Origin: Gloeobacter kilaueensis JS1
Lineage (GTDB): Bacteria > Cyanobacteriota > Cyanobacteriia > Gloeobacterales > Gloeobacteraceae
Reading direction: 5' to 3'
Assembly (NCBI RefSeq): GCF_000484535.1
Contig: NC_022600.1
Location: 4,146,234 to 4,210,233, forward strand
DNA length: 64,000 nt
Made by a program: the position numbers and the translations under genes. The notes beneath the pieces are model-generated. The model was not told the DNA's origin and searched no databases. It saw only the letters and a list, made by a program, of their open reading frames with translations. This document shows positions 46,577 to 60,303 of the stretch, one piece after another; the stretch's first letter is position 1, and each line of letters starts with the position of its first letter.

Positions 46577-47437
46577 ATGCAGACCCTTTCTCAGCAAGTC
46601 GCAGCTACGCCCAAATTTGCGGTTCTCGGCAAAGTGCTCGTCGAGATGGGCCTGGTCAACGAGTATCAGTTGCACTGCGCCCTCGACTATCAAAAAGAAG
46701 AGGCCGAGCACTTTCAAAAATGGCGGTTGCTCGGTGAAATTTTTGTCGAGTGGGGGCTGATCACCCGCAGCCAGCTCGTGGCGGCGGTCGATCGGCAGTA
46801 CTTGCAAAACGAGAAGTGGTTGTTTCGAGCCCGGACCCACCCCTCGGCGCGCAGCCTGGGCAAGCGCACGATCGATCTGGTAGGAGCGGCGGTCGGCTTG
46901 AGCCTCACCGCCTGTCTGTTACCGGCGATTGCCCTCGCCATCTACCTCGAAGACAGAGGACCGATCTTTTTTGCCCAACCGCGCATGGGCCTGCGCGGAC
47001 GGCAGTTTACAATCTGGAAATTTCGTTCGATGGTGCCGGATGCGGAGGCAAGAAAGCTCACCGTAGCCGGGAGCAGCATCTTTTTTAGCCCAGCCGCCGA
47101 TCCGCGCATCACGGGCGTTGGCCGGGTGCTGCGCAAATTGAACCTCGACGAGTTGCCCCAATTTTGGAACGTGCTTTTAGGCCAGATGAGCCTGGTGGGC
47201 ACGCGACCGCCCACCCTCGACGAGGTCAAGCACTACTCAGAAACGCAGTGGCAGCGATTGCTGGTCAAGCCGGGGATCACCGGTCTATGGCAGGTGAGTG
47301 GCAGCCGCCACGCCCAGAGTTTCGATCAGGTACTGCAGCTTGACAGCGAGTACCAGCAAAGCTGGAGTGTCCGGCGGGATCTGGCGATTGTCTTCAAGAC
47401 GCTCTACTGCGCTCTGTTTCGGCGGGGGAGGCTCTAG
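46577..47437 (+). CDS. Initiating sugar transferase with N-terminal MshEN-like domain
   Basis: The 286-aa protein joins two modules. Residues 16-39 and 51-74 form tandem 24-residue motifs (LGKVLVEMGLV..QLxxALxxQ and LGEIFVEWGLI..QLxxAVxxQ), like the MshEN domain that binds cyclic di-GMP in type IV pilus and secretion ATPases. The usual leading Arg is absent in both, and the linker is longer. Residues 95-286 are a bacterial sugar transferase (polyprenyl-phosphate hexose-1-P transferase): KRTIDLVGA, one membrane anchor, RMGLRGRQFTIWKFRSM, LRKLNLDELPQFWNVL, GTRPPTLDE and KPGITGLWQVSG. It likely primes the polymer. Confidence 0.87.
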   Translation: MQTLSQQVAATPKFAVLGKVLVEMGLVNEYQLHCALDYQKEEAEHFQKWRLLGEIFVEWGLITRSQLVAAVDRQYLQNEKWLFRARTHPSARSLGKRTIDLVGAAVGLSLTACLLPAIALAIYLEDRGPIFFAQPRMGLRGRQFTIWKFRSMVPDAEARKLTVAGSSIFFSPAADPRITGVGRVLRKLNLDELPQFWNVLLGQMSLVGTRPPTLDEVKHYSETQWQRLLVKPGITGLWQVSGSRHAQSFDQVLQLDSEYQQSWSVRRDLAIVFKTLYCALFRRGRL

Positions 47438-47441
47438 GGCG

Positions 47442-47891
47442 ATGAAAGTTCTGCTGGTCTGCTCTTCCGGGGGGCACTTTGCTGCGATGCTGCGGCTGCA
47501 ACCGTTCTGGCAGGCCCACGAGCGCAGCTGGGTCACTTTTCGTTCTGCGGCGACTGCCGGAGTGCTGGCGGGGGAGCGCGTCTACTGGGCCTTCAGCCCG
47601 ACCAACCGCAATTTGATCAATCTGGTGCGCAATCTGGTGCTGGCGGTAACAGTCCTCATCACCGAAAAGCCCGATCTGGTGCTCACCACCGGGGCGGGGG
47701 TGGCCGTGCCCTTCTTGCTTCTGGGCAGGTTGCGCCGCTGCCGCGTCGCCTTCGTCGAATCGATCACCCGCACCGAGTCGCTGAGCATGTCCGCCCGGCT
47801 GGTGCTGCCCTTCAGCGAAGTCTACGTCCAGTGGCCCGAACTGCAAAAGCAGTACCCCAAAACGATCTACACCGGAGCCCCTTTTTTATGA
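47442..47891 (+). CDS. PssD/Alg14-like glycosyltransferase membrane subunit
   Basis: This 149-aa protein resembles the membrane-anchored half of a two-part GT1 transferase, as in PssD of rhizobia and Alg14: VLLVCSSGGHFAAML at the start, a hydrophobic segment near residues 60-75, then KPDLVLTTGAGVAVPFLLLG and VESITRTESLS. It overlaps the PssE-like partner by four bases (ATGA), and starts four bases after the sugar transferase. The pair would add the second sugar to the lipid carrier. Confidence 0.88.
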   Translation: MKVLLVCSSGGHFAAMLRLQPFWQAHERSWVTFRSAATAGVLAGERVYWAFSPTNRNLINLVRNLVLAVTVLITEKPDLVLTTGAGVAVPFLLLGRLRRCRVAFVESITRTESLSMSARLVLPFSEVYVQWPELQKQYPKTIYTGAPFL

Positions 47892-48385
47892 TCTTCGTCA
47901 CCGTCGGCACCGAACAGTTTCCCTTCAATCGCCTGCTCCACTGGGTAGCGCGGGCGATCGAAAGAGGCGACATCCGCGAGGAGGTGATCGTCCAATCCGG
48001 TGCCTGCACCGACAGGGTGCCCGGTGCCCAGACCTTTTCGCTACTGAGCCAGCCTGAATTTGATCGCTGTGTGCAGCAGGCGCGGTTGGTGATCAGCCAC
48101 TGCGGCGAGGGGTCTTTTTTGCAGCTGAGTACGGCCAACCGGCCCTTTGTGCTGGTGCCGCGCCGCTGCGGTCTGGGGGAGCACCTCGACGATCACCAGT
48201 GGGAGCTGGCGCGGGTGCTCGATCGGGTTGGGGTGCCGGTGGCCTGGATTCCCAACGACATTGGCCGCTTTGTCAACAGACCGGTGCCGGTGGCGACCGC
48301 TGCGCTATCGAGCCAGTCCCTGCTTCGTTGTCTGACGGAGCACTTCGCACAGCAGACACCTTCAAGAGGAGCGACGAACCGATGA
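47888..48385 (+). CDS. PssE/Alg13-like glycosyltransferase catalytic subunit
   Basis: The 165-aa C-terminal, donor-binding half of the split GT1 transferase. FVTVGTEQFPFNRLL is the hallmark start; CVQQARLVISHCGEGSFLQL and PFVLVPRRCGLGEHLDDHQWELA form the nucleotide-sugar site. The ATG overlaps the stop of the PssD-like gene, and its own stop overlaps the next gene, so translation is coupled on both sides. Confidence 0.9.
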   Translation: MIFVTVGTEQFPFNRLLHWVARAIERGDIREEVIVQSGACTDRVPGAQTFSLLSQPEFDRCVQQARLVISHCGEGSFLQLSTANRPFVLVPRRCGLGEHLDDHQWELARVLDRVGVPVAWIPNDIGRFVNRPVPVATAALSSQSLLRCLTEHFAQQTPSRGATNR

Positions 48386-49314
48386 AAGCCTACTTGTTGG
48401 CCGCCGGGACCGGTAGCCGCCTGCGACCGATGACCCAGTGGCTGCCCAAGCCCCTGGTACCCTTTCTCAACCAGCCGCTGGTGCATTACCAGCACCAGCA
48501 ACTCCTGGAGCACGCCGCTCACGTCCGCTTCAACATCAGCTACCTCGCCGCTCCCCTCACCGCCTACGTCAATTCGGTGCCGCGAACGAGCTACAGCCTC
48601 GAAGCGCAACCGCTCGGTTCGGCGCGCACGGTCTGGCAGGAGCGGGACTACTTCGATGAGACGACGATCGTCGCCTGCGCCGATGTGCTCGCCGACTACC
48701 CGGTGGAGCAACTGCTCGCAAACCACCGCGCCAGCGGAGCCCTGGTGACGATCGCCACCACCACCGTCGATGATCCGCGCCGCTTTGGGGTGATCGTGAG
48801 CGCTCCCGACGGTCGCATCGAGGCGTTTCAAGAAAAACCGGAACTGCCCGCCTCCAACACGATCAGCACCGGCATCTACGTCTTCGAGCCCGAGGTGCTG
48901 CGCCACTGGAACAGCCACTGGCAGGATTTAGGCGGCGAAGCCTTTCCGCACCTTCTGGCCCAGGGGGTGCCCCTCAACGCCTGGGCGCTACCGGGCGACT
49001 GGCAGGACGTGGGCACGGGGGAAAACTATCTATTTTTGCAACTGCGGCGTCTGGGCGGCAACAGCCTCGTCCATCCCGAGGCGTGCGTCCACCCGAGCGC
49101 TACCCTCCAGCGCACCGTCGTCGGTGCCGGTGCCCTAATCGAAGCCGGAGCCACCCTCACCAACTGCATCGTCTGGCCCGAGACCCACGTCGAAGCCGGC
49201 GCAAGCATCGGCCTGTCGGTGCTCGCTCCCCAGTTCAGCCTGCGCCTCGATCGCCGCCAGCGCACCCAGACGGTGCCGGTCGATCGCCGTCAGGCGCTGC
49301 GCTACATCTCGTAG
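48382..49314 (+). CDS. Sugar-phosphate nucleotidyltransferase
   Basis: The enzyme (310 aa) activates a sugar phosphate as NDP-sugar. The N-terminal catalytic domain has YLLAAGTGSRLRPMTQWLPKPLVPF, VACADVLADYP and GVIVSAPDGRIEAFQEKP. A short left-handed beta-helix tail (PEACVHPSATLQRTVVGAGALIEAGATL) follows, as in mannose-1-phosphate guanylyltransferase-like proteins. Whether it makes GDP-mannose or another donor cannot be told. It overlaps the PssE-like gene by four bases and is followed by the EAL gene after 14 bases. Confidence 0.88.
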   Translation: MKAYLLAAGTGSRLRPMTQWLPKPLVPFLNQPLVHYQHQQLLEHAAHVRFNISYLAAPLTAYVNSVPRTSYSLEAQPLGSARTVWQERDYFDETTIVACADVLADYPVEQLLANHRASGALVTIATTTVDDPRRFGVIVSAPDGRIEAFQEKPELPASNTISTGIYVFEPEVLRHWNSHWQDLGGEAFPHLLAQGVPLNAWALPGDWQDVGTGENYLFLQLRRLGGNSLVHPEACVHPSATLQRTVVGAGALIEAGATLTNCIVWPETHVEAGASIGLSVLAPQFSLRLDRRQRTQTVPVDRRQALRYIS

Positions 49315-49328
49315 GACCACCCGGACCC

Positions 49329-50231
49329 GTGCTCGATCAAACTGTGAATATCCCTAACTGTGCCGTAATCCAGCAGGCACTCCTTGAAGATCGCTTCGAG
49401 CTGTGGTTTCAGCCGGTCTACCGCGCTGCTACCGGGGCGGTCGTCCACAACGAAGCCCTCCTGCGCTTGCGCGACGGCGACGGCGGGGTGCTCCTGCCCG
49501 GTCGCTTTTTGCCCCTGGCCGAGCAGGCCGGACTGATGCGCGAACTGGACCTGCGGGTGATCGAAAAGGCGATCGCTTTTTTACAGCAAGAAGACAGGCT
49601 CTGCCTCTCGGTCAACCTCTCAGGCGAGAGTCTGGCGGATCCGGGTTTTGCCGGACTTGTGATCGAGCGGCTGGGAGGAGCCGCTATTGCGCCGGAACGG
49701 TTGGGTTTTGAACTCAAAGAAAAGGACGTCCTCGCCGACCTCGATGCCGCCCGCACCTGGATCGCGGTGCTCAAAAAATTTGGCTGTCCCATTGCCCTCG
49801 ACGACTTTGGCTTTAACCTCACCGCCTGCGAGTACCTGCGGGATCTGCCCGTCGATGTCGTCAAGATCGATGGCCGCTTTATCCGCAGCCTCAAAGCCGA
49901 ACCGCTCTACCGGACGCTGGTGCAGGCGATGAACAGCGTCGTCCATGCCTGCGGCAAGCGGACTCTCGCCGAATCGGTAGAAGATGCCGAGACGCTGGGC
50001 CTGTTGCGACAGCTCAAGGTGGATTACCTGCAGGGCTACCACCTGAAGCGCCCCGACGCCGCTACCACCGCCACCGCCACCGCCGCTCTGCGCTATCCGG
50101 CGCGGGTGCTGCTGGCGCTGGCAGCCCTTTACCTGTTCAAAAGTGCCCTCAATATCAACCTCTTCGAGGATTTTCACCTGTGGGAACTGCCGCTGGTGCT
50201 GCTGCGGTGGTTCTGGCCCAATCTGTCCTGA
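49329..50231 (+). CDS. EAL-domain c-di-GMP phosphodiesterase with C-terminal membrane segment
   Basis: The 300-aa protein starts at GTG 49329. Residues 15-245 are an EAL domain. Catalytic positions appear kept: Glu42 (NEALLR), Asn96 (SVNLSG), Glu128 (GFELKE), Asp158-Asp159 (ALDDFG), Lys179 (VKIDG), Glu215 (AESVED) and Gln235 (LQGYH). Loop 6 reads FGFNLTA instead of FGTGxSS, which may lower activity or impair dimerisation. Residues 258-298 are hydrophobic and may anchor it in the membrane. No GGDEF or sensor domain is present. Within a polysaccharide operon, it probably tunes local c-di-GMP. Confidence 0.88.
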   Translation: MLDQTVNIPNCAVIQQALLEDRFELWFQPVYRAATGAVVHNEALLRLRDGDGGVLLPGRFLPLAEQAGLMRELDLRVIEKAIAFLQQEDRLCLSVNLSGESLADPGFAGLVIERLGGAAIAPERLGFELKEKDVLADLDAARTWIAVLKKFGCPIALDDFGFNLTACEYLRDLPVDVVKIDGRFIRSLKAEPLYRTLVQAMNSVVHACGKRTLAESVEDAETLGLLRQLKVDYLQGYHLKRPDAATTATATAALRYPARVLLALAALYLFKSALNINLFEDFHLWELPLVLLRWFWPNLS

Positions 50232-50249
50232 GTCTCTAAGGAAGCAAAG

Positions 50250-51317
50250 ATGAACTGCAACCGTGTCAAAAAACAGCGTACCCCAGCCGCCCTGGTCGCT
50301 GTCCTGCTGCTGGCGGCCACGGCCCCGCTCGGGGCGATGCCGCTCTCGCCCGGCGACAAAGTCCGGCTGGTCCTGCCCGAAGGCGAAGGCTTCAGCGGCA
50401 GCTACGAGGTAGACGGGGGCGGCGCGCTCGATCTGCCCCACCTTGGCCGCTTGCCGGTAGCGGGGCTGGAGCCGGAGGCCGCCGCCCGGCGCGTCTCTGA
50501 GACCCTGGTGGAGGAGGGCTACTTTCAAAAAGCGTTTGCCCGCACCAACCTGCAGGTGCTCGCCTGGGCTCCGATCAACGTCGAGGTCGAAGGGGCGACC
50601 TTCAACCCCGGTCGGGTGCTGATCAATCCCCGACCCGTCAAAGAAGGGCGCGAGGACGAGGCGGCGGATCTGCCCGGCGACGCCACCCTCGAGCGCAACC
50701 TGGCAGCCGCCCTGCGGGCTGCCGGTGGTGTCAGACCGAACGCTGACCTGGCCCATATCCGGTTGATCCGCGCCGGGGTCGAAAAAACCGTCGATCTAAG
50801 CGGCGTGCTCACCGACGGAGCGATCGAGGATGTGCCGCTGCAGGCGGGCGATCGGATCGTCGTACCGGCGGTCGCGACCTTTCAAGCCAGCCTGGTCCGC
50901 CCCTCGCAGATTACACCGCCGGGGATCATGGTGTTCTTGTCGAACCTCACCCAGCCTGCCACCAACAACGCCAGCTCCCACGTCGATCGCGACGTGCGCG
51001 AATTTGCCTACGGCTCGCGTTTTTCGCAGGCGGTGATCGCCGCCAACTGCCTGGGCGGCACCCAGACCACCAACGCCGATCGCTACGCCGTGCTGGTGCG
51101 CACCAGCCGCGAAACCGGTGAGACCAAAACCCTCGATCGATCCATCGAACAGCTCATCCGCCACTCCGATGACACCAACAACCCCCTGCTCATGCCCGGC
51201 GACGGCGTCGCCTGCTACGACTCGGGGGTGACCAACACCCGCAGTATCTTCCAGCTGGTGGGCGACATCCTCAATCCGTTCAGCCTGCTTTTTGGTCCCG
51301 CTCGTATCCTCCGGTGA
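50250..51317 (+). CDS. Wza-like polysaccharide export protein
   Basis: The 355-aa protein starts with a signal peptide (residues 8-28; no lipobox Cys at the expected spot). A Poly_export (PES) domain follows (LSPGDKVRLVLPEGEGFSGSYEVD, LPHLGRLPVAGLEPEAAARRV), then an SLBB-type region (INVEVEGATFNPGRVLINP), an L-A-G-like module ending LQAGDRIVVP, and a family-specific C-terminal part with GTQTTNADRYAVLVRT. It would form the outer-membrane exit for the polymer. It starts 18 bases after the EAL gene. Confidence 0.87.
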   Translation: MNCNRVKKQRTPAALVAVLLLAATAPLGAMPLSPGDKVRLVLPEGEGFSGSYEVDGGGALDLPHLGRLPVAGLEPEAAARRVSETLVEEGYFQKAFARTNLQVLAWAPINVEVEGATFNPGRVLINPRPVKEGREDEAADLPGDATLERNLAAALRAAGGVRPNADLAHIRLIRAGVEKTVDLSGVLTDGAIEDVPLQAGDRIVVPAVATFQASLVRPSQITPPGIMVFLSNLTQPATNNASSHVDRDVREFAYGSRFSQAVIAANCLGGTQTTNADRYAVLVRTSRETGETKTLDRSIEQLIRHSDDTNNPLLMPGDGVACYDSGVTNTRSIFQLVGDILNPFSLLFGPARILR

Positions 51318-51321
51318 AGTC

Positions 51322-52713
51322 ATGACAAAAGCATTTCCAGTTCCTGAATTACCCCGCGACCTCGGTGGCCCGAAGCTCTCCGTCAGTCGCCATCTGCTTC
51401 TTGGCCTGGCGGCGAACGTCGGCATCTGGGGCCTGGCGGCGGCATTTTTGGTCGGGGCACCGCGCTCCTACACCAGCGAATGGGCGCTCATCCTGCCGGG
51501 CTCCGGCATGGGGACGAACATCACCCTCGCCGATGTCGGCCAGGCGAGTTCGTCGGTCAACTCGCCCTACGCCAGCTCCAGCATCGATCCACGGGCCAAC
51601 TACAAGGCGGTGGCCGAGAGCGAGCCGGTGCTCCAGGCGGCAGCAAAGAGCCTGGGTCTGACGGCGCGCACCTTTGGCCAGCCGCGCATCAAACTGCCGG
51701 ACCAGTCCTCGGTGATCGAGTTTGCCCTCAACGCTTCCACGCCCGAGCTGGCCCAAAAAAAATCCCGCGCCCTGGAGGCGGCCTTTGAAAAGCGCCTCGA
51801 CCAGCTGCGCACCGACGAGATGGAGCGGCGCGAGGCAAGCATCGAAGCGGCCACCGCCAGTGCCCGCCAGAAGTTGCAGCGCGCCCAGCAGGCGGTCCTG
51901 CGCTACAAGGCGCACTCGGGCCTCAGTTCCACCGATCAGGTGAGCAACCTGACAGCGACGATCGAACAACTGCACAAGGAGCAGGCCGAAGTCCTCGCCC
52001 AGGGCCGCCTCACCAGCACCCAGCTCGCCCAGCTCACCCAGACGATGAAACTCTCGCCCGGCGGGGCAGCGGACGCCTTCGTGCTCCAGGCCGACCAGAT
52101 CTTCCAGGAGCACCTCAAGGACTACAGCGAGGCGACCACCGCCCTGCAGGTGCTGCAGACAAAGTGGGGGGCGAACCATCCGACCGTAGCGAAGGAACTC
52201 GCTCGCCGCGAGGCCGCCCACACCGGCATGATCGAGCGGGCACGGGCACTGCTCGGCAGCCAGGCGAACGACAACCGCCTGCAGCAGTTGAGCTTGATGT
52301 CGAGTGCTGCCGGCGGCGGCAGCCGGGAGAATCTCTTTCGCGAGCTGGTCGCCACCCAGGCCCAGAGCCGGGGTCTGGCAGGTCAGGCAGAAGAATTGAC
52401 CCGCCAGATCGCAAAACTCGAAACGAAGCTCAGGATGCGCACCGCCCAGCAGACGGGCCTGGAAGGGCTGCAGCGCAACCTTCAGCTGGCGGAGACAGTC
52501 TTTACCTCGACCCTTGCCAAGCTGGACGTGGGCAAATCGGACATCTACGCCTCCTATCCCCTCGCCCAGCAGTTGATTGCTCCCCAGCTGCCGGAGGAAC
52601 CGAGTTTCCCCAGCCCGCTCTACACACTTTTAGGAGCGCTGGTCGGTTCGTTTCTCGTCAGCGCCGGTATCTTTGCCCACTGGCTGCGGGGACGCACCGA
52701 TGAAGCCGCGTAA
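51322..52713 (+). CDS. Wzz-like polysaccharide co-polymerase
   Basis: The 463-aa protein has two membrane spans (about 25-46 and 435-457) flanking a long periplasmic coiled-coil domain with repeated Q/A/L heptads (residues 150-420), the form of chain-length determinants. SYTSEWALILPGSG and LPEEPSFPSPLYTLLGALVG are typical flanks. There is no tyrosine-kinase domain, so it belongs to the PCP type without cytoplasmic autokinase. It overlaps the ligase/polymerase gene by 14 bases. Confidence 0.85.
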   Translation: MTKAFPVPELPRDLGGPKLSVSRHLLLGLAANVGIWGLAAAFLVGAPRSYTSEWALILPGSGMGTNITLADVGQASSSVNSPYASSSIDPRANYKAVAESEPVLQAAAKSLGLTARTFGQPRIKLPDQSSVIEFALNASTPELAQKKSRALEAAFEKRLDQLRTDEMERREASIEAATASARQKLQRAQQAVLRYKAHSGLSSTDQVSNLTATIEQLHKEQAEVLAQGRLTSTQLAQLTQTMKLSPGGAADAFVLQADQIFQEHLKDYSEATTALQVLQTKWGANHPTVAKELARREAAHTGMIERARALLGSQANDNRLQQLSLMSSAAGGGSRENLFRELVATQAQSRGLAGQAEELTRQIAKLETKLRMRTAQQTGLEGLQRNLQLAETVFTSTLAKLDVGKSDIYASYPLAQQLIAPQLPEEPSFPSPLYTLLGALVGSFLVSAGIFAHWLRGRTDEAA

Positions 52714-53989
52714 CTTCGAGGAGTGGGCCGTCTGGTGGGCGATCGTCGGCACCTACGGGTTTTATCTGGTGGGCGGCCTCTACATTCTCGCCCCGGTCCT
52801 GGCCTGGACCCTGACGGGCTGTTTGATCTGGCGGTTGTGGCGGCAGAACGCCGCCACGCCCCAGGGCGAGCGCGTGCAGATCCCGGTGGGGGTCGCCGTC
52901 TGGGTGCTCTCGATGCTGGCGATGGAACTGGCGCTCGTCGTCGGTCACCTCGACTTCGATCTGGGCACCGCCTCGCTCATCAAGTCTTCGATCGGCTGGG
53001 CCAAGGGCTGGGCGCTGCTGGCGCTCTTTCCGCTCATCGGCTGCCTGAAGATCCGCCCCCAACTGTTGAGCCGGGCGGCCTGCCTGCTCGGGCTGCAGAC
53101 GCTCATCGTACTGCCGCTTTTTGTTGCCGCCTACCTGCTCAAACTGCCCCCCACCCTCTACGTCTCGCCGCTGCAGGTGGTGGGCGGGCCGGGGCCAGAA
53201 TTTTTTAGCCTCAGCCTCTACGAAATCGATCCGGGTAACGGCCTGCCGCGCTGGCGGCTGTTTGCTCCCTGGGCACCGGCTCTCGGGATGACAGCGAACG
53301 TCTATTTTTATCTCGCCCTGGCGGAGCGCGATTGGCGCTGGCGCTGGGTAGGAACGCTCGCCTGCGTCGCGATGTGCCTCATCTCTCAGTCGCGCCTCGC
53401 CGCCCTGGCCCTGCCGGTTGTCTGGGGAATCACCTGGCTGCTTGCCAACCTCTACCGACCGGGGGTGCTGGTCGGTAGCGGCCTCGCCGCGACGGCCCTG
53501 GGTCTGTTGCAATCACCCGTGCGCGAAGCCTACGAGAACTTTGCCCGCGCCTTTGAAGGGGCACGGGCCAACTCCTCGCGGGTACGGGATCTCCTGGGCC
53601 GCATCGCCTTCGACCGCTGGCAGAACGAGGCTCCCGTCTGGGGCCATGGGGTGCTCGAACCCGGCCCCCACAGCGTCGAGCACATGCTCATCGGCTCGCA
53701 CCATACCTGGCTTGGCCTGCTTTTTGTCAAAGGAGCGGTGGGCTTTGCCGCCCTGGCTGCACCGATGCTCTGGAGCGGCGTCGAGCTATTCGTCAAGCTG
53801 CGCACCAGCGCGCTTGCCCGCGTGGCGATGAGCATGTGGCTGATTCTGCTGCTCTACACCTTTGGCGAGAACTTAGAAATTCTTGCCTACCTGTTCTGGC
53901 CCGCCCTGGTGGTCTTAGGCAGCGCCCTCGCCGAGCGGCAGGAGCAGGCTGTGGGCGATTGCGCCCCCCAACAGCAAACCGTTGGTTGA
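52700..53989 (+). CDS. O-antigen ligase/Wzy-like polymerase
   Basis: This 429-aa integral-membrane protein has about ten hydrophobic segments. The periplasmic loop near residues 275-345 (NSSRVRDLLGRIAFDRWQ, VWGHGVLEPGPHSVEHMLIGSHHTWLGLLFVKGAVG) carries the conserved Gly-His and Ser-His-His features of the Wzy/WaaL family. In this operon a polymerase role is more likely than ligation to a core lipid. The start at ATG 52700 lies within the Wzz-like gene. Confidence 0.83.
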   Translation: MKPRNFEEWAVWWAIVGTYGFYLVGGLYILAPVLAWTLTGCLIWRLWRQNAATPQGERVQIPVGVAVWVLSMLAMELALVVGHLDFDLGTASLIKSSIGWAKGWALLALFPLIGCLKIRPQLLSRAACLLGLQTLIVLPLFVAAYLLKLPPTLYVSPLQVVGGPGPEFFSLSLYEIDPGNGLPRWRLFAPWAPALGMTANVYFYLALAERDWRWRWVGTLACVAMCLISQSRLAALALPVVWGITWLLANLYRPGVLVGSGLAATALGLLQSPVREAYENFARAFEGARANSSRVRDLLGRIAFDRWQNEAPVWGHGVLEPGPHSVEHMLIGSHHTWLGLLFVKGAVGFAALAAPMLWSGVELFVKLRTSALARVAMSMWLILLLYTFGENLEILAYLFWPALVVLGSALAERQEQAVGDCAPQQQTVG

Positions 53990-53999
53990 GGAGTGATAC

Positions 54000-55127
54000 A
54001 TGTATTTAACGGCAAAAGACCGCGAAGATGCGCCCCTGGTATCGGTGGTCATCCCCGCCTACAACGCCGGGCGCTTTATCGCCGCCACCCTCGAATCGGT
54101 CCTCGCCCAGACCTACAGCCACCTGGAGGTGCTGGTGGTCGATGACGGCTCAAGCGACCAGACCGCCGAAATTGCCCTCGCCTTTGCCGCCCGCGACCAG
54201 CGGGTAATCGTGGTAAGCCAGGCAAACGCCGGGGTGGCCGCCGCCCGCAACCTGGGCATCGAGCGTTCCCGAGGCGCGTTCATCGCCCTGGTCGATGCCG
54301 ACGACATCTGGTATCCCGACAAGCTGAGCCTGCAGGTGCAGTGCTTCGAGCAATCGGGAGCAGCCGTGGGCCTGGTCTACACCTGGTCGGCCCACATCGA
54401 CGCCGAGGGAAAGCTGACCGGCGGCTACATTGCCTTCAAAGAAGAAGGAGATGTCTACCTCCCCTTGCTCTATCGCAACTTCGTGGGCAACGGCAGCACG
54501 CCCCTGATTCGAGCTGGCTGTCTGCGGCGGACGGGCGGCTTTGCCGCTGAATTTCGCGAGCGCCGCGCCGGCGGCTGCGAGGACTGGGATCTCTACTTGC
54601 GCCTGGCGGAGGTGTGCGAATTTCGGGTCGTGCCCCAATTGCTCACCGGTTATCGCCAGCTTCCGGCCAGCATGTCCGCCAACTACGAGGCGATGGAGCG
54701 CTCCTTTGCCCTGGTGATCGAGCGCGCCTGCCAGCGGCGGCCCGCCCTGCCGGCTCTGGTCAGCCGCTGGGCAGCGAGCGACGTGTGCTGCTACCTGGCC
54801 AACCTGGCCCGCCAGAATGGCCACCATCGAGCCAGTTTCACCTGGGCGCTCAAGTCTATGGGCCTCGATCCAGCTGCCCTGTTGCGCTTTGAGCTTTATC
54901 GAGACCTCATCGAAGGCGCGCTGCTGCCGCTGGTGGGTCCAGACCGCCATCCCTTGCAGCACCTGAGGCACCGCTGGCGCACCGACCGCTTCGAGATGGC
55001 CGATGTCGAGCGGCGCATCGCCCACCACAACCGGCGGCTCTGGCCGCACTACGAGCGCCATCGCCTCCGCCGCCTCGTCGGCGCATCGCCGTCAGCCAAT
55101 TCCCTCAACGCCGGGGTGTCAGTGTGA
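54000..55127 (+). CDS. GT2-family glycosyltransferase
   Basis: This GT-A enzyme has 375 aa: LVSVVIPAYNAGRFIAATLESVLAQTY, VVDDGSSDQTAE, FIALVDADDIWYPDKL (DxD metal site) and EDWDLYLRLAEVCEF (catalytic-base region). The C-terminal 130 residues are helical and variable. It follows the polymerase gene by ten bases and overlaps the Wzx-like gene by four (GTGA). It transfers a sugar to the repeat unit on the inner face of the membrane. Confidence 0.92.
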   Translation: MYLTAKDREDAPLVSVVIPAYNAGRFIAATLESVLAQTYSHLEVLVVDDGSSDQTAEIALAFAARDQRVIVVSQANAGVAAARNLGIERSRGAFIALVDADDIWYPDKLSLQVQCFEQSGAAVGLVYTWSAHIDAEGKLTGGYIAFKEEGDVYLPLLYRNFVGNGSTPLIRAGCLRRTGGFAAEFRERRAGGCEDWDLYLRLAEVCEFRVVPQLLTGYRQLPASMSANYEAMERSFALVIERACQRRPALPALVSRWAASDVCCYLANLARQNGHHRASFTWALKSMGLDPAALLRFELYRDLIEGALLPLVGPDRHPLQHLRHRWRTDRFEMADVERRIAHHNRRLWPHYERHRLRRLVGASPSANSLNAGVSV

Positions 55128-56404
55128 ATTTTCGCCTTCGCCTGCAAGAAAAACTCTCCGACCGGTTCGTGCGCAACCTGGGCTGGTTGGGAGCCGCTCA
55201 ACTCGTCAACCGCGTCTTTCGTCTGGCGACGACGGTGGTGCTCGCCCGGCTTCTCGCTCCGGACGACTACGGTCTGGCAGCCCTGGTGCTCACCACCAAC
55301 GAATTTGTGAACGTCTTTACCCGCTGCGGCATCGGCACCAAGCTCATCCAGGCCCGCGAAGAAGACATGCCAGTCTACTGCGACACGGCCTACTGGCTCA
55401 CCTGGATCGTCTGCATTGTCCTTTTTGTCGGCCAGTGCGCCCTCGCCCTGCCGGTGGGGCTCTTTTATGGCCGCAGTGCGATCGTGCTTCCAATCTGTGC
55501 GATGGCCCTCGTCTACCTGACGCTGCCCTTTGGCTACGTCCAGGCGATGCTTTTGATGCGCGAGAACCGGCTGGAGGTCGGGGCGCTCACCAACGCCGTG
55601 CAGCTGTCGGTCGATTGTTTGCTCACGATCGCCTTTGCTCTGGGGGGGCTCGGCCTGTGGGCGGTGATCTTGCCCAAGATCCTGGTCGCACCGCTCTGGT
55701 CGCTCATTCATATTTACAACCATCCCTGGCGGGCTCCCCGGCAGTTTACCCTGGCGCGCTGGCAGGAGATCTTCCGCTTTGGCCGCAACGTCCTCGGGGT
55801 CGAACTGCTCGCCACCCTGCGCGCCAACGTCGATTACCTGCTGGTGGGCCGCTTTTTGGGCGTCGAAGCGCTGGGGGTCTATTACTTTGCCTTCAACGCC
55901 GGTCTGGGCATCAGCCTCAGCTTGATCTCGGCCTTTGACATGGCCCTCTACCCCCACCTGTGCGCCGCCAACCAGCAACCGGAACAGCTGCGCCAGCGCT
56001 TTCATCGAGCCCTCAAGACCCTCGCGCTTTTGTTCGTTCCGCTCGTACTGCTGCAGGCGAGCCTCGCCCCGTTCTACGTGCCGATTATCTTCAGCTCCAA
56101 GTGGGCCGCCGCTGGAGCGATACCGGTGCTCGTTCTCATCTGCCTTTCGGCTTTGCCCCGGCCCTTCGCCGGTGCCGCCTCCCAGGTGTTGCACGCCCTG
56201 AACCGGCCCGAAGTCGATCTGCAGTGGAACCTGCTATTTACGCCGCTGCTGATCGTCGCGCTGTTGGCCGGCCTCAATTGGGGCATCCTCGGGGTGGCTG
56301 CCGCCGTGCTCGCCACTCACCTGCTGCTGCTGCCGCTATTTGCGCTCTGGGCAGACCGCTACTGCTTTACGAGCGCCCATTCGCCTGTTCCTGCGTCCGT
56401 CTGA
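55124..56404 (+). CDS. Wzx-like polysaccharide flippase
   Basis: The 426-aa protein has around twelve membrane spans of the MOP/polysaccharide-transport superfamily, with the family start RNLGWLGAAQLVNRVFRLATTVVLARLLAPDDYG and a mid region RFGRNVLGVELLATLRANVDYLLVG typical of the lipopolysaccharide biosynthesis group. It should flip lipid-linked repeat units to the periplasm. The GTG start overlaps the stop of the GT2 gene. Confidence 0.9.
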   Translation: MNFRLRLQEKLSDRFVRNLGWLGAAQLVNRVFRLATTVVLARLLAPDDYGLAALVLTTNEFVNVFTRCGIGTKLIQAREEDMPVYCDTAYWLTWIVCIVLFVGQCALALPVGLFYGRSAIVLPICAMALVYLTLPFGYVQAMLLMRENRLEVGALTNAVQLSVDCLLTIAFALGGLGLWAVILPKILVAPLWSLIHIYNHPWRAPRQFTLARWQEIFRFGRNVLGVELLATLRANVDYLLVGRFLGVEALGVYYFAFNAGLGISLSLISAFDMALYPHLCAANQQPEQLRQRFHRALKTLALLFVPLVLLQASLAPFYVPIIFSSKWAAAGAIPVLVLICLSALPRPFAGAASQVLHALNRPEVDLQWNLLFTPLLIVALLAGLNWGILGVAAAVLATHLLLLPLFALWADRYCFTSAHSPVPASV

Positions 56405-56423
56405 TACCCGCCGGAGAGCTTCG

Positions 56424-57446
56424 ATGCCAAAAGTTTCTGTGATCGTTCCTGTCTACAACGTCGAGCCCTACGTGGCCGCCGCCCTGCACTCGGTCCTCGA
56501 TCAGACCTACCGGGACTTCGAGGTGATCGTCGTCGATGACGCCTCTCCCGATCGCAGCGTCGAGATCTGCCGCTCCTTTCGCGACCCGCGCCTGCGCATC
56601 GTCCAGCAGGCCAATCGGGGCTTAGCCGGAGCGCGCAACACCGGCATCCGCCACGCCCGAGGCGAGTACCTGGCCTTTCTTGACTCCGACGATCTCTGGG
56701 CAGCGACCAAGCTCCAGAAGCACGTCGCCCACCTCGACAGCCACCCCGAGGTCGGCCTCAGCTTCAGCCGCTCCGCATTTATCGACGGGGCAGGCCAGCC
56801 CCTCAACTACTACCAGATGCCCCGTCTGAGCGGCATCGACGCCGCCCACCTGCTCTGCCGCAACCCGGTCGGCAACGGCTCCGCCCCGGTGATCCGGCGG
56901 CAGACGCTTGCGGACATCGCCTATCCAGGCGAGCGGGAAGGCGAACCGTGCTACTTCGACGAGCAGTTTCGCCAGTCAGAAGATATCGAGTGCTGGGTGC
57001 GCATCGCCCTCCAGACCGGCTGGCAGATCGAGGGCATCCCCGAGGCGCTTACCTTTTATCGGGTAAATGCCGGTGGCCTCTCCGCCGTTTTGCTCAAGCA
57101 ACTGGCTTCCTGGGAGCGGATGATCGAAAAGACCCGCAGCTACGCTCCAGAACTCATCGCCGCTGCGGGCAACCTGGCGCGGGCCTACCAGTTGCGCTAC
57201 CTGGCCCGCCGGGCCGTTCAGCTGCGCGACGGGGCGATGGCCGTCTCCCTGATGCGCCGCGCCATCGCGACTGACAAGCGCATTCTTATCGAGGAGCCGC
57301 GCCGCACCCTGCTCACCGCCCTTGCCGCCCTCGTCCTGCTCGCGGTGCCGGCGGATCTCTTTAACCGGCTCGAAGCGTTCGGGATGCGCCGGGTCGCCCG
57401 GCAGCAGGAGCGGATCATCGCCGCCTCGGGACTGTCTGCTCCGTGA
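56424..57446 (+). CDS. GT2-family glycosyltransferase (second)
   Basis: The 340-aa enzyme begins at ATG 56424 with KVSVIVPVYNVEPYVAAALHS, then VIVVDDASPDRS, GEYLAFLDSDDLWAATKL (DxD) and QSEDIECWVRIALQTGW. Its C-terminus has a hydrophobic stretch near residues 302-318. It differs enough from the other GT2 in the operon to use another acceptor. It overlaps the GH74 gene by four bases. Confidence 0.92.
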   Translation: MPKVSVIVPVYNVEPYVAAALHSVLDQTYRDFEVIVVDDASPDRSVEICRSFRDPRLRIVQQANRGLAGARNTGIRHARGEYLAFLDSDDLWAATKLQKHVAHLDSHPEVGLSFSRSAFIDGAGQPLNYYQMPRLSGIDAAHLLCRNPVGNGSAPVIRRQTLADIAYPGEREGEPCYFDEQFRQSEDIECWVRIALQTGWQIEGIPEALTFYRVNAGGLSAVLLKQLASWERMIEKTRSYAPELIAAAGNLARAYQLRYLARRAVQLRDGAMAVSLMRRAIATDKRILIEEPRRTLLTALAALVLLAVPADLFNRLEAFGMRRVARQQERIIAASGLSAP

Positions 57447-59512
57447 GATGCCCGCTGTTGCTGTTGCTGCTGCTCCTGTTCTGGAGCGCTCCGGCCCGCC
57501 TGGTGCGCGCCTACCAGTGGGGGAGCGTCGCGATCGGGGGCGGCGGCTATATCACCGGGATCTACCTCCATCCAAAGGCAGCCGGCCTCGCCTACCTGCG
57601 CACCGACATCGGCGGCTTTTATCGCTGGAACGGGTCGAGCCACTGGATTGCCCTCACCGACGGCTTTACTGCCGATCAGAGCAACTACTACGGCGGCGAA
57701 GCCCTCGCCCTCGATCCCGCCGATCCCAACCTCGTCTACATCGCCTGCGGCAAAGACCTGAGTGTACCCGGTGCCCTGTTCAAATCCACCGATCAAGGGG
57801 CGCACTGGAGCCCCCTCGGCCTGAACGTGCCGATGGGGGGCAACGCCGATCGGCGCTGGGCCGGGGAGCGGCTGGCGGTCGATCCTTTCGATTCGCGGCT
57901 GCTCTTATTTGGATCGCGCCGGAACGGCCTCCTGCGTTCGAGCGACGGCGGCATGAGCTGGAGCGCGGTGTCTATTCCCGCCGTTCACCTGAGCGACGGC
58001 ATCGGCGTGCTCTCCCTCGCCTTCGACAGCCGCACCCGTGGCCTTGTCTACCTCAACGCCTACGGCGACGGCATCTATCTTTCTCAAGATAGTGGCCTGC
58101 ACTGGAGCCGGATCCCAGGCAGCCCGGACGGAGCCCTGCGGCTTGCGGTATCCGGCGACGGTTCCCTCTACGTGAGCCACAGCCAGGGGGTGGCCCGGTA
58201 CGCGGCGGGCCAGTGGTCGGACCTCTCGCCCGAAGCGAATACCAGCTTCGATGCATTGGATGTCTCGCCCCTCGACCCCCGCCAGATCCTCGTCGCCACC
58301 GACCAGAGCAGCGATACTCATATTTATTATTCTAAAAATGGCGGCACTTCCTGGACCCTGCTCTCGCGCTCGCTCGCAAGCACCCTGCCCTGGTTCGATC
58401 CTGCCGCCTTCACAAGAAGCACAGCGGCGGTCGCCTTCGACCCGTTCGTGGCGGGCAAAGCCTGGCTGAGCGACTGGTACGCCGTCTATCAGACCGCCGA
58501 CTTCACCGCCCAACCGACGATCTGGCGCAACGCTGTGGGCGGCATCGAGCAGACCGTCACCTTTGGCCTGAGCGCCCCGGCGAGCGGGCCGCTCCTGGTG
58601 AGTGCGATCGCCGATCTCGACGGCTTTGTTCACGACCGGGGGTTGGATGCCGCCCCGAGCCAGACCTTCGGCGGCAGGAGCGGCCCCTGGTACCAGGACA
58701 CCTACAGCCTCGACAGCGATCCTGCGGCACCCCTGCAACTGGTGCGCGTCGGCGGCAACCGCTGGCAGAACCCCTACCAGGGCGGTGTAGCCGTCTCAGG
58801 CGACGGCGGACGCACCTGGAGGAGCAGCGGTTCCTTCCCGGCTGGAACGATCCCGCTGCGCGTAGCGATGGCGACCGGCAACCCGAGCCGCTTCGTGGTT
58901 GTGACAAGCAACGGGCTGCCGCTTTTTACCAGCAACGGCGGTCAGACCTGGCAGCCGGTGAGCGGCCTGCCGCTGGGCCCCACTGGTCCCTGGTACTGGG
59001 GGCAGCCCCTCGCCGCCGATCGGGTGGAGGCGAACACTTTTTATTACTACAGCGGCGGCACCGTCTACCGCAGCGACGACGGAGGCGAGCGCTTCGCTTC
59101 GCTCACCAGCACCCTGCCCGCCCAGGACGGGGCGCTGCTTAAAACTGCTCCCGGCAGGCAGGGCGAGGTCTGGCTCAGCCTGGATGGCGAGGGCCTGTAC
59201 CATTCGATCGACGCTGCCCATAGCTTCCAGCCCATCGCCAGCGTTCAACAGGCGCATCTGTTTGCCCTCGGTAAACCCGCCCCCGGCAGCACCGTCCCGG
59301 CCCTCTACCTCTACGGCAGCGTGGTCGGTCTGGGATCGGGTATCTTCCAGTCCCTCGACGCCGGGCAGAGCTGGACGAGTATCGGCAACTTCGCTCTGCC
59401 CATCGGCGACGCCCCAAACACGATGGAGGCAAGCTGGCAGCGCTTTGGACTGGTCTTCGTCGGCACCAATGGCCGGGGCATCTACTACGGTATGCCTGCA
59501 GCCGGAAATTGA
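57443..59512 (+). CDS. Secreted GH74-type glycoside hydrolase
   Basis: The 689-aa product has a signal peptide (residues 3-23) then two seven-bladed propellers with repeated Asp-box motifs (SSDGGMSW, SQDSGLHW, SKNGGTSW, SGDGGRTW). The opening WGSVAIGGGGYITGI, YLRTDIGGFYRW, NYYGGEALALDPADPNLVYI and the mid part GIEQTVTFGLSAP match GH74 xyloglucanases. The two Asp positions corresponding by motif to the catalytic pair are kept: Asp55 (RTDIGG) and Asp391 (IADLDGF). Being last in the polysaccharide operon, it likely trims or releases the operon's own polymer rather than plant xyloglucan. Confidence 0.85.
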   Translation: MRCPLLLLLLLLFWSAPARLVRAYQWGSVAIGGGGYITGIYLHPKAAGLAYLRTDIGGFYRWNGSSHWIALTDGFTADQSNYYGGEALALDPADPNLVYIACGKDLSVPGALFKSTDQGAHWSPLGLNVPMGGNADRRWAGERLAVDPFDSRLLLFGSRRNGLLRSSDGGMSWSAVSIPAVHLSDGIGVLSLAFDSRTRGLVYLNAYGDGIYLSQDSGLHWSRIPGSPDGALRLAVSGDGSLYVSHSQGVARYAAGQWSDLSPEANTSFDALDVSPLDPRQILVATDQSSDTHIYYSKNGGTSWTLLSRSLASTLPWFDPAAFTRSTAAVAFDPFVAGKAWLSDWYAVYQTADFTAQPTIWRNAVGGIEQTVTFGLSAPASGPLLVSAIADLDGFVHDRGLDAAPSQTFGGRSGPWYQDTYSLDSDPAAPLQLVRVGGNRWQNPYQGGVAVSGDGGRTWRSSGSFPAGTIPLRVAMATGNPSRFVVVTSNGLPLFTSNGGQTWQPVSGLPLGPTGPWYWGQPLAADRVEANTFYYYSGGTVYRSDDGGERFASLTSTLPAQDGALLKTAPGRQGEVWLSLDGEGLYHSIDAAHSFQPIASVQQAHLFALGKPAPGSTVPALYLYGSVVGLGSGIFQSLDAGQSWTSIGNFALPIGDAPNTMEASWQRFGLVFVGTNGRGIYYGMPAAGN

Positions 59513-59592: not shown

Positions 59593-60303
59593 ATGAGCGA
59601 CTCGTACACCCGCCGATTTCCTACCGCTGAAGAGTTGCCCGACTCCGACGACACCCCCGTGGACAACGAACTGCAGGATCTGATCCCCAGTCTGCTCAAG
59701 CGCCTGCTCGCCTCTATCTGGCCCGAGCGCTACGACTGGTTCTGGGGCACCGACATGGGCATCTACTTCGACCCAGACGATCCGCCCGTCGTCCCCGATG
59801 GCTTTTTAGCGCTGGGCGTGCCCCGCGTCAAAGACGAGAACCTGCGCAGAAGCTATGTGCTCTGGGAAGAGAACACCGCGCCGATCCTGGCGCTGGAGGT
59901 GGTCTCGCGCTCGCGGCGGGGCGAGTATCGCCAGAAGAAGATCGACTATGCCGAGCTGGGCATCCGCTACTACGTCATCTACAACACCCAGCGGCGGGTA
60001 AAGGCCACCTTTGAGGTGTACCGGCTGGAGGGTGAGGAGTACGTGCTGTTGGAGGGCAATCCGGTGTGGTTGCCGGAGGTGGGTCTGGGGCTCGGTGTGG
60101 AGCGGGGAATAGATCAAGGAGTGGAGCGCGAGTGGCTCTATTGGTACGACGAGGCGGGCCATCGCTACCCCACACCGGAGGAGCGGGAGCAAGCGGCACG
60201 ACAGCGGGCAGAAACAGCAGAACAGCGGGCAGAAACAGCAGAACAACGCGCCGAGCGGCTGGCCGAGCGGCTGCGGGCTCTGGGCGTCGATCCAGACGCC
60301 TGA
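59593..60303 (+). CDS. Uma2-family protein with C-terminal coiled coil
   Basis: The 236-aa protein has a Uma2/DUF820 core: VVPDGFLALGVPRV, ILALEVVSRSRRGEYRQKKIDYAELGIRYYVIYN. The last 50 residues are an Ala/Glu/Arg/Gln-rich coiled coil encoded partly by a perfect 21-bp tandem duplication (60202-60243), giving two copies of AEQRAET-like heptads. This long-tail form is common among cyanobacterial Uma2 proteins. It begins 80 bases after the GH74 gene. Confidence 0.87.
   Translation: MSDSYTRRFPTAEELPDSDDTPVDNELQDLIPSLLKRLLASIWPERYDWFWGTDMGIYFDPDDPPVVPDGFLALGVPRVKDENLRRSYVLWEENTAPILALEVVSRSRRGEYRQKKIDYAELGIRYYVIYNTQRRVKATFEVYRLEGEEYVLLEGNPVWLPEVGLGLGVERGIDQGVEREWLYWYDEAGHRYPTPEEREQAARQRAETAEQRAETAEQRAERLAERLRALGVDPDA
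60202..60243 (+). repeat. 21-bp perfect tandem duplication
   Basis: Two identical 21-bp units sit head to tail within the Uma2 gene, preserving frame and lengthening the coiled coil by one heptad. A third, diverged unit continues the pattern. Confidence 0.85.

Follow-up and report, generated by a model that had tools for sequence, protein, structure and literature searches.

We analyzed a stretch of 64,000 nucleotides from Gloeobacter kilaueensis JS1 (NC_022600.1, positions 4,146,234 to 4,210,233; hereafter the window), whose source genome is a single contig of 4,724,791 bases. Within the window, twelve plus-strand open reading frames at 46577-59512 (g1 to g12) form a cluster with the genes of a predicted Wzx/Wzy-type exopolysaccharide (EPS) pathway, in which the priming enzyme carries a domain of the MshEN type, a candidate receptor for cyclic di-GMP (c-di-GMP), and to which an EAL protein and a GH74 glycoside hydrolase belong. 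All twelve reading frames were confirmed at their coordinates and, as the first-pass annotation of this DNA had described, they follow one another with overlaps or short gaps, none longer than 19 bp. From g1 to g12 the junctions measure 4, -4, -4, 14, 18, 4, -14, 10, -4, 19 and -4 bp, and the cluster is flanked by 239 bp of intergenic space upstream and 80 bp downstream. Judging by gene spacing alone, g1 to g12 are likely co-transcribed. A consensus scan found a single weak sigma-70-like site (46382) upstream of the cluster, no more than expected by chance, and terminator-like sites scattered through the cluster, most of them within genes. The next gene 3' of the cluster, also on the plus strand, is of the Uma2 family (59593-60303).

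Domains were called from Pfam and NCBIfam profiles, and GH74 from a PDB match. The first gene, g1 (46577..47437), encodes a small monotopic phosphoglycosyl transferase (monoPGT) of 286 residues, the priming enzyme (Bac_transf, 3.8e-61; NF053729). Its MshEN-type domain spans residues 16-83 (46622..46825) and is followed by the catalytic domain (46862..47413; PF02397 at residues 96-279), assigned from its KFRSM, DE (191-192) and GTRPP motifs and from its place in a tree described below. This catalytic domain is PglC-like, with a Foldseek match to PglC, the Asp-Glu pair at 191-192 and a hydrophobic membrane segment at 104-122. The next two genes encode a PssD-like glycosyltransferase subunit (g2, 47442..47891; NF041549, 9.4e-34, 116.9 bits with a cut-off of 110) and a PssE-like subunit (g3, 47888..48385; PF04101, 6.9e-12), the latter falling under the cut-offs of the WelK and PssE models (for PssE-type NF041548, 6.1e-21 and 74.9 bits with a cut-off of 120 bits). 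A sugar-1-phosphate nucleotidyltransferase follows (g4, 48382..49314; PF00483, NTP_transferase, 4.2e-39), whose top NCBIfam model is a mannose-1-phosphate guanylyltransferase with a score under the cut-off. Next come a stand-alone EAL protein with a C-terminal hydrophobic segment (g5, 49329..50231; PF00563, 1.2e-64), its start corrected to a GTG at 49329, and a Wza/OPX-like polysaccharide export protein (g6, 50250..51317; PF02563, Poly_export, 2e-8; SLBB_2, 2.6e-7). Because Pfam assigns no family to g7 or g8, their identities rest on position, hydropathy and synteny: g7 (51322..52713), with transmembrane segments at 26-44 and 433-451 and a weak TIGR03007 match, is a putative Wzz-like chain length protein, and g8 (52700..53989), with at least seven hydrophobic segments, a putative Wzy-like polymerase. 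The AlphaFold model of g8 was unusable (predicted local distance difference test, pLDDT, 46). The remaining genes encode two GT2 glycosyltransferases (g9, 54000..55127, PF00535, 2.3e-35; g11, 56424..57446, PF00535, 2.5e-40), a Wzx-like flippase (g10, 55124..56404; PF13440, Polysacc_synt_3, 4.7e-51) and the GH74 glycoside hydrolase, which has an N-terminal signal-type hydrophobic segment at residues 3-21 (g12, 57443..59512). Of the Wzx/Wzy component set, family profiles recognize the priming enzyme, Wzx and OPX; the putative Wzy and Wzz are assigned only from their hydropathy and synteny.

Fusions of an MshEN-type domain to the priming enzyme were found in five proteins from four genomes, all of them Gloeobacterales. 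The g1 protein scores 42.7 bits against NF053729 ('cyclic di-GMP-binding, MshE-related'; cut-off 38) and is the sole protein of its genome above this cut-off; three of its four relatives also score above it (50.2, 39.6 and 41.0) and one below (36.9). Pfam MshEN (PF05157) was not called on g1 and matches only the PilB-type ATPase in this genome. In an AlphaFold model of g1 built with the relatives in the alignment (pLDDT 87.6), four confident helices precede the catalytic domain in a short-long-short-long arrangement (17-23, 29-46, 52-58 and 64-83). Foldseek superposes the domain on c-di-GMP-bound MshE (5htl_B) with a root-mean-square deviation of 1.1 Å over 60 columns at 35% identity, and also on the c-di-GMP-bound domain of PilF. 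Further support is provided by a profile of the five relatives, which retrieves PilF (4.5e-15), PilB (8.2e-9) and MshE (5.7e-7) among PDB sequences. As modelled, the N-terminal domain of g1 is an MshEN-type fold.

Among nine Gloeobacterales genomes, the fusion is present in the window genome and in three others: ES-bin-141, PMM_0068 and, in two copies, ES-bin-313. When 84,980 species genomes were scanned with degenerate patterns, two of them for the catalytic domain, the fusion came up in the last three genomes only, again twice in ES-bin-313; distant cases may escape such a search. No further fusion was found in a sample of 386 genomes of the phylum, and the single N-terminal domain, when searched against the phylum, matched weakly in 12 other genomes, never fused to a priming enzyme. 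Fusions of this kind may already be catalogued among monoPGT domain fusions. The g8-type Wzy is more widely spread, being found in 29 of 386 cyanobacterial genomes (22 of 143 genera) with the same gene context where examined, and the Wza-Wzz-Wzy-Wzx-GT2 set recurs in other cyanobacteria. There, the matching priming enzymes mostly carry a STAS domain (PF01740) before the same catalytic domain; in the literature searched, no prior description was found that links STAS domains or anti-sigma antagonists to sugar transferases of cyanobacteria. A phylogeny of 95 catalytic domains places the enzymes with MshEN, with STAS and without such a module in one clade (99/89), within which the MshEN forms make up a clade of their own (100/99) and the remainder is its sister (99/88). 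The tree is midpoint-rooted, and the order in which MshEN and STAS were gained is not readable from it. Since Gloeobacterales are the first branch among oxygenic cyanobacteria, a vertical split is a possible origin of the difference. Throughout the phylum a regulatory domain, though not always the same one, is retained at this N-terminal position, which argues for priming as the controlled step of the pathway. Two further arrangements were seen around the STAS forms. PssE, PssD, STAS and transferase are joined in single chains of 716-718 residues in two genomes (L233:12698-14848 (-) and L234:13224-15380 (-)), adjoining Wza, Wzz and Wzy, and an RsbW-like ATPase (HATPase_c_2; L158:2425-2865 (-)) lies next to a priming enzyme with a STAS fusion, which suggests that EPS priming in other cyanobacteria is controlled by partner switching.

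The first-pass annotation had described an MshEN domain, of c-di-GMP receptor type, on the priming enzyme; the fold and the NF053729 match support such a domain, and the published sequence motifs do not. The published MshEN motif consists of two copies of RLGxx(L/V/I)(L/V/I)xxG(L/V/I)(L/V/I)xxxxLxxxLxxQ with a 5-residue spacer. Two corresponding 24-residue motifs are found in g1 at 16-39 and 51-74, and several of their features weigh against ligand binding. The opening arginine of both motifs is missing in all five fusion proteins, the spacer is 10-11 residues long (11 in g1, 10 in the relatives), and the glutamine of the second motif is absent from both ES-bin-313 proteins. Because of the missing arginines and the longer spacer, g1 fails both the strict and the relaxed form of the published motif in a regular-expression search. 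The domain might then have lost c-di-GMP binding and serve as a protein-interaction or oligomerization module that docks g1 to PssD/PssE or to another regulator, an alternative we regard as unlikely, though as the most serious of those considered. It would fit with STAS, the module that takes the place of MshEN on this enzyme in other cyanobacteria and is typically a protein-interaction domain. However, both g1 motifs fit the relaxed form once the first residue is left free, the motif glycines are invariant across the five fusion proteins, and the ligand-contacting LG, L..L and first glutamine positions are largely retained in a domain that closely matches ligand-bound MshE. The second MshEN domain of PilF likewise has a leucine for the arginine of motif II (LLG). 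In MshE, changes at Arg9, Asp12 or Gln32 cost at most about fivefold in c-di-GMP affinity and changes at hydrophobic positions more than tenfold (PMC5013675), and motif glycines are critical in NfrB (PMC8669472). EAL or GGDEF-EAL genes also accompany the fusion in most of the genomes that have it, as described below. Overall, these data point to a domain of the MshEN type for which c-di-GMP binding is probable though not certain. As both arginines are missing and the relaxed motif fails, we infer, rather than conclude, that c-di-GMP turns on priming.

The EAL protein g5 keeps all eight catalytic residues (E42, N96, E128, D158, D159, K179, E215 and Q235). It is one of just two EAL genes in the genome, which has four GGDEF matches, two of them strong. 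No PilZ was found in the genome in a search that left ComFB/CdgR and riboswitches outside its range. Domain annotation of the twelve cluster genes revealed no diguanylate cyclase and, for this reason, 'self-contained', as the operon had been called, is too strong. In ES-bin-141, from a related genus and with its cluster spread over two contigs, an EAL ortholog of 57% identity, C-terminal helix included, lies directly before wza as in the window. Both the intact active site and the conserved position of the EAL protein agree with what had been proposed. In PMM_0068, from another family, the gene immediately upstream of the fusion encodes a response regulator-PAS-GGDEF-EAL protein (L051:1940-3970 (+)). 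In total, three of the four fusion genomes have an EAL or GGDEF-EAL gene within or next to the cluster. In ES-bin-313 no EAL gene is found near either copy of the fusion, which counts against the reading favored below, and in other cyanobacteria none was found in 20 regions of about 20 kb centred on Wzy. A point against an active phosphodiesterase is loop 6, which is degenerate in g5 (DFGFNLTA in place of canonical DFG(T/A)GYSS, as in DFGTGYSS) and in the ES-bin-141 ortholog (DFGFDISR). Together with the C-terminal hydrophobic helix conserved in both orthologs, the loop would suit a c-di-GMP-binding scaffold that activates or recruits the polymer machinery and has no working phosphodiesterase. 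We consider such a scaffold improbable, given that every metal- and substrate-contacting residue is retained and that the nearest solved relatives of g5 are ordinary EAL proteins.

The last gene, g12, shows full-length homology to solved xyloglucanases (6p2m, 4.5e-89). Asp55 and Asp391 stand at the catalytic positions and are invariant in eight cyanobacterial GH74 proteins; we take them to be the catalytic pair from D70 and D480 of CtXgh74A. The GH74 call of the first-pass annotation is therefore upheld, as a secreted-type enzyme with both aspartates. Likeness to the xyloglucanases 6p2m and CtXgh74A (2cn2) extends to the full length and both aspartates; the difference is that g12 sits in an EPS cluster. 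Seven other genomes of the phylum sample have a GH74 of 47-54% identity, and in five of these (G062, G027, G060, G008 and G360) it adjoins GT2 genes of this cluster type, the order in G062 being Wza-Wzz-Wzy-GT2-Wzx-GT2-GT2-GH74. In the other two (G125 and G070) it lies away from recognizable cluster genes. The Wzy type is found in six of the eight GH74 genomes compared with 25 of 386 overall (p ~1e-6, relatedness uncorrected). Since GH74 recurs at the cluster genes and co-occurs with the Wzy type, a subfamily of cyanobacterial GH74 seems to be part of EPS clusters, with their product as its probable substrate. No earlier description of GH74 with EPS or cyanobacteria was found in the literature searched. 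GH74 had been put forward as part of what makes the operon unusual, a view we reject, as the arrangement recurs in the clusters of five other cyanobacterial genomes. Another group of cyanobacterial GH74 proteins is more distant (34-40% identity; L165-L169), and in some genomes it too lies near polysaccharide-type genes.

Comparison of neighbourhoods in other cyanobacteria, as the first-pass annotation had proposed, finds that most of the cluster, GH74 included, is shared and that the MshEN fusion is peculiar to the Gloeobacterales lineage. The three other Gloeobacter species have neither the fusion nor this Wzy, which counts against the reading favored below. Within the Gloeobacterales searched, GH74 is present in the window genome only, where it was gained or kept in this genome alone within the order. 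That absence elsewhere, and ES-bin-313 with no EAL gene near its clusters, might suggest chance clustering, that is, a plain EPS cluster into which unrelated EAL and GH74 genes were inserted. We find this the least probable of the alternatives: one of just two EAL genes in 4.7 Mb holds a place that is conserved in another genus at 57% identity, GH74 and the Wzy type are associated, and the cluster has overlapping gene junctions.

We favor, with a little better than even confidence, a reading in which a Wzx/Wzy EPS cluster widespread among cyanobacteria is present here in its Gloeobacterales form: c-di-GMP gates priming, the EAL protein resets it, and the polymer is trimmed or released by GH74. 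Computation established which genes are present and in what order, the MshEN fold, the intact catalytic residues of EAL and GH74, and the conservation of the modules. In the mechanism that we infer from them, g1 would make the committed step, the transfer of a sugar-1-phosphate to undecaprenyl phosphate. Its MshEN-type module would most likely be the c-di-GMP receptor, with bound c-di-GMP raising priming activity. The g5 EAL protein, probably tethered to the membrane by its C-terminal helix, would lower c-di-GMP near g1 and so damp or reset production. PssD/PssE and the two GT2 enzymes would extend the repeat unit, Wzx would flip it, Wzy and Wzz would polymerize it, and the OPX protein would export the polymer. 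The secreted GH74 may cut the polymer of its own cluster, thereby setting its length or releasing it. Much the same scheme had been drawn up before: its c-di-GMP part is plausible and has partial support, its domain assignments have stood, and its claims that GH74 is peculiar and that the system is self-contained have not. We give about even chances to the proposition that c-di-GMP acts directly on priming through the MshEN fusion, that MshEN and STAS are exchangeable on one clade of enzymes, and that the in-operon phosphodiesterase closes the loop.

Local c-di-GMP control of priming is the best reading by analogy with two known systems, NfrB-DgcJ and EpsW-EpsZ. NfrB of Escherichia coli is an MshEN-controlled glycosyltransferase with a dedicated cyclase, DgcJ (PMC8669469), and resembles g1 in that MshEN is fused to an EPS-making enzyme that has a dedicated c-di-GMP enzyme (PMC8669469, PMC8669472). 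It differs in being a GT2 synthase with a C-terminal MshEN and no Wzx/Wzy, whereas g1 has an N-terminal MshEN on a priming enzyme and an EAL partner. EpsW of Myxococcus xanthus controls EPS at the priming enzyme EpsZ, so that here too a signalling domain controls a Wzx/Wzy pathway at priming (PMC12802240), although EpsW is a response regulator separate from its target, a large monoPGT, and has no c-di-GMP domain. The STAS-fused cyanobacterial priming enzymes share the enzyme clade and the Wza-Wzz-Wzy-Wzx-GT2 genes with the window cluster; STAS replaces MshEN in them, and none of the 20 Wzy-centred regions examined has an EAL gene within about 10 kb. A glycosidase is also built into the EPS clusters with bcsZ, pslG or pelA, in which a hydrolase is co-encoded with polymer synthesis as it is here, the hydrolase family being different from GH74.

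For synthase-type polysaccharides, control by direct action of c-di-GMP is well documented, while post-translational control of Wzx/Wzy pathways is described as incompletely understood (PMC12802240). With a receptor-type domain inside the very enzyme by which undecaprenyl phosphate is committed, Wzx/Wzy control would become testable in one protein, and the MshEN and STAS homologs represent a natural experiment in which regulatory inputs are swapped on one enzyme. If the mechanism holds, a likely output of c-di-GMP would also be identified for an early-branching cyanobacterium in which no PilZ was found. Two other gene types were seen at the clusters of other genomes. ATP-grasp proteins, of which the window cluster has none, lie in or beside the clusters of the relatives (L058:10340-11260 (-) and L049:9518-10678 (+)), and in four cyanobacteria a conserved gene of about 550-580 residues with a start-proximal NPVIAIGLDAA(D/E)P motif adjoins the cluster at its Wza end (L170:570-2243, L171:5382-8869, L172:9453-11159 and L173:9205-10872).

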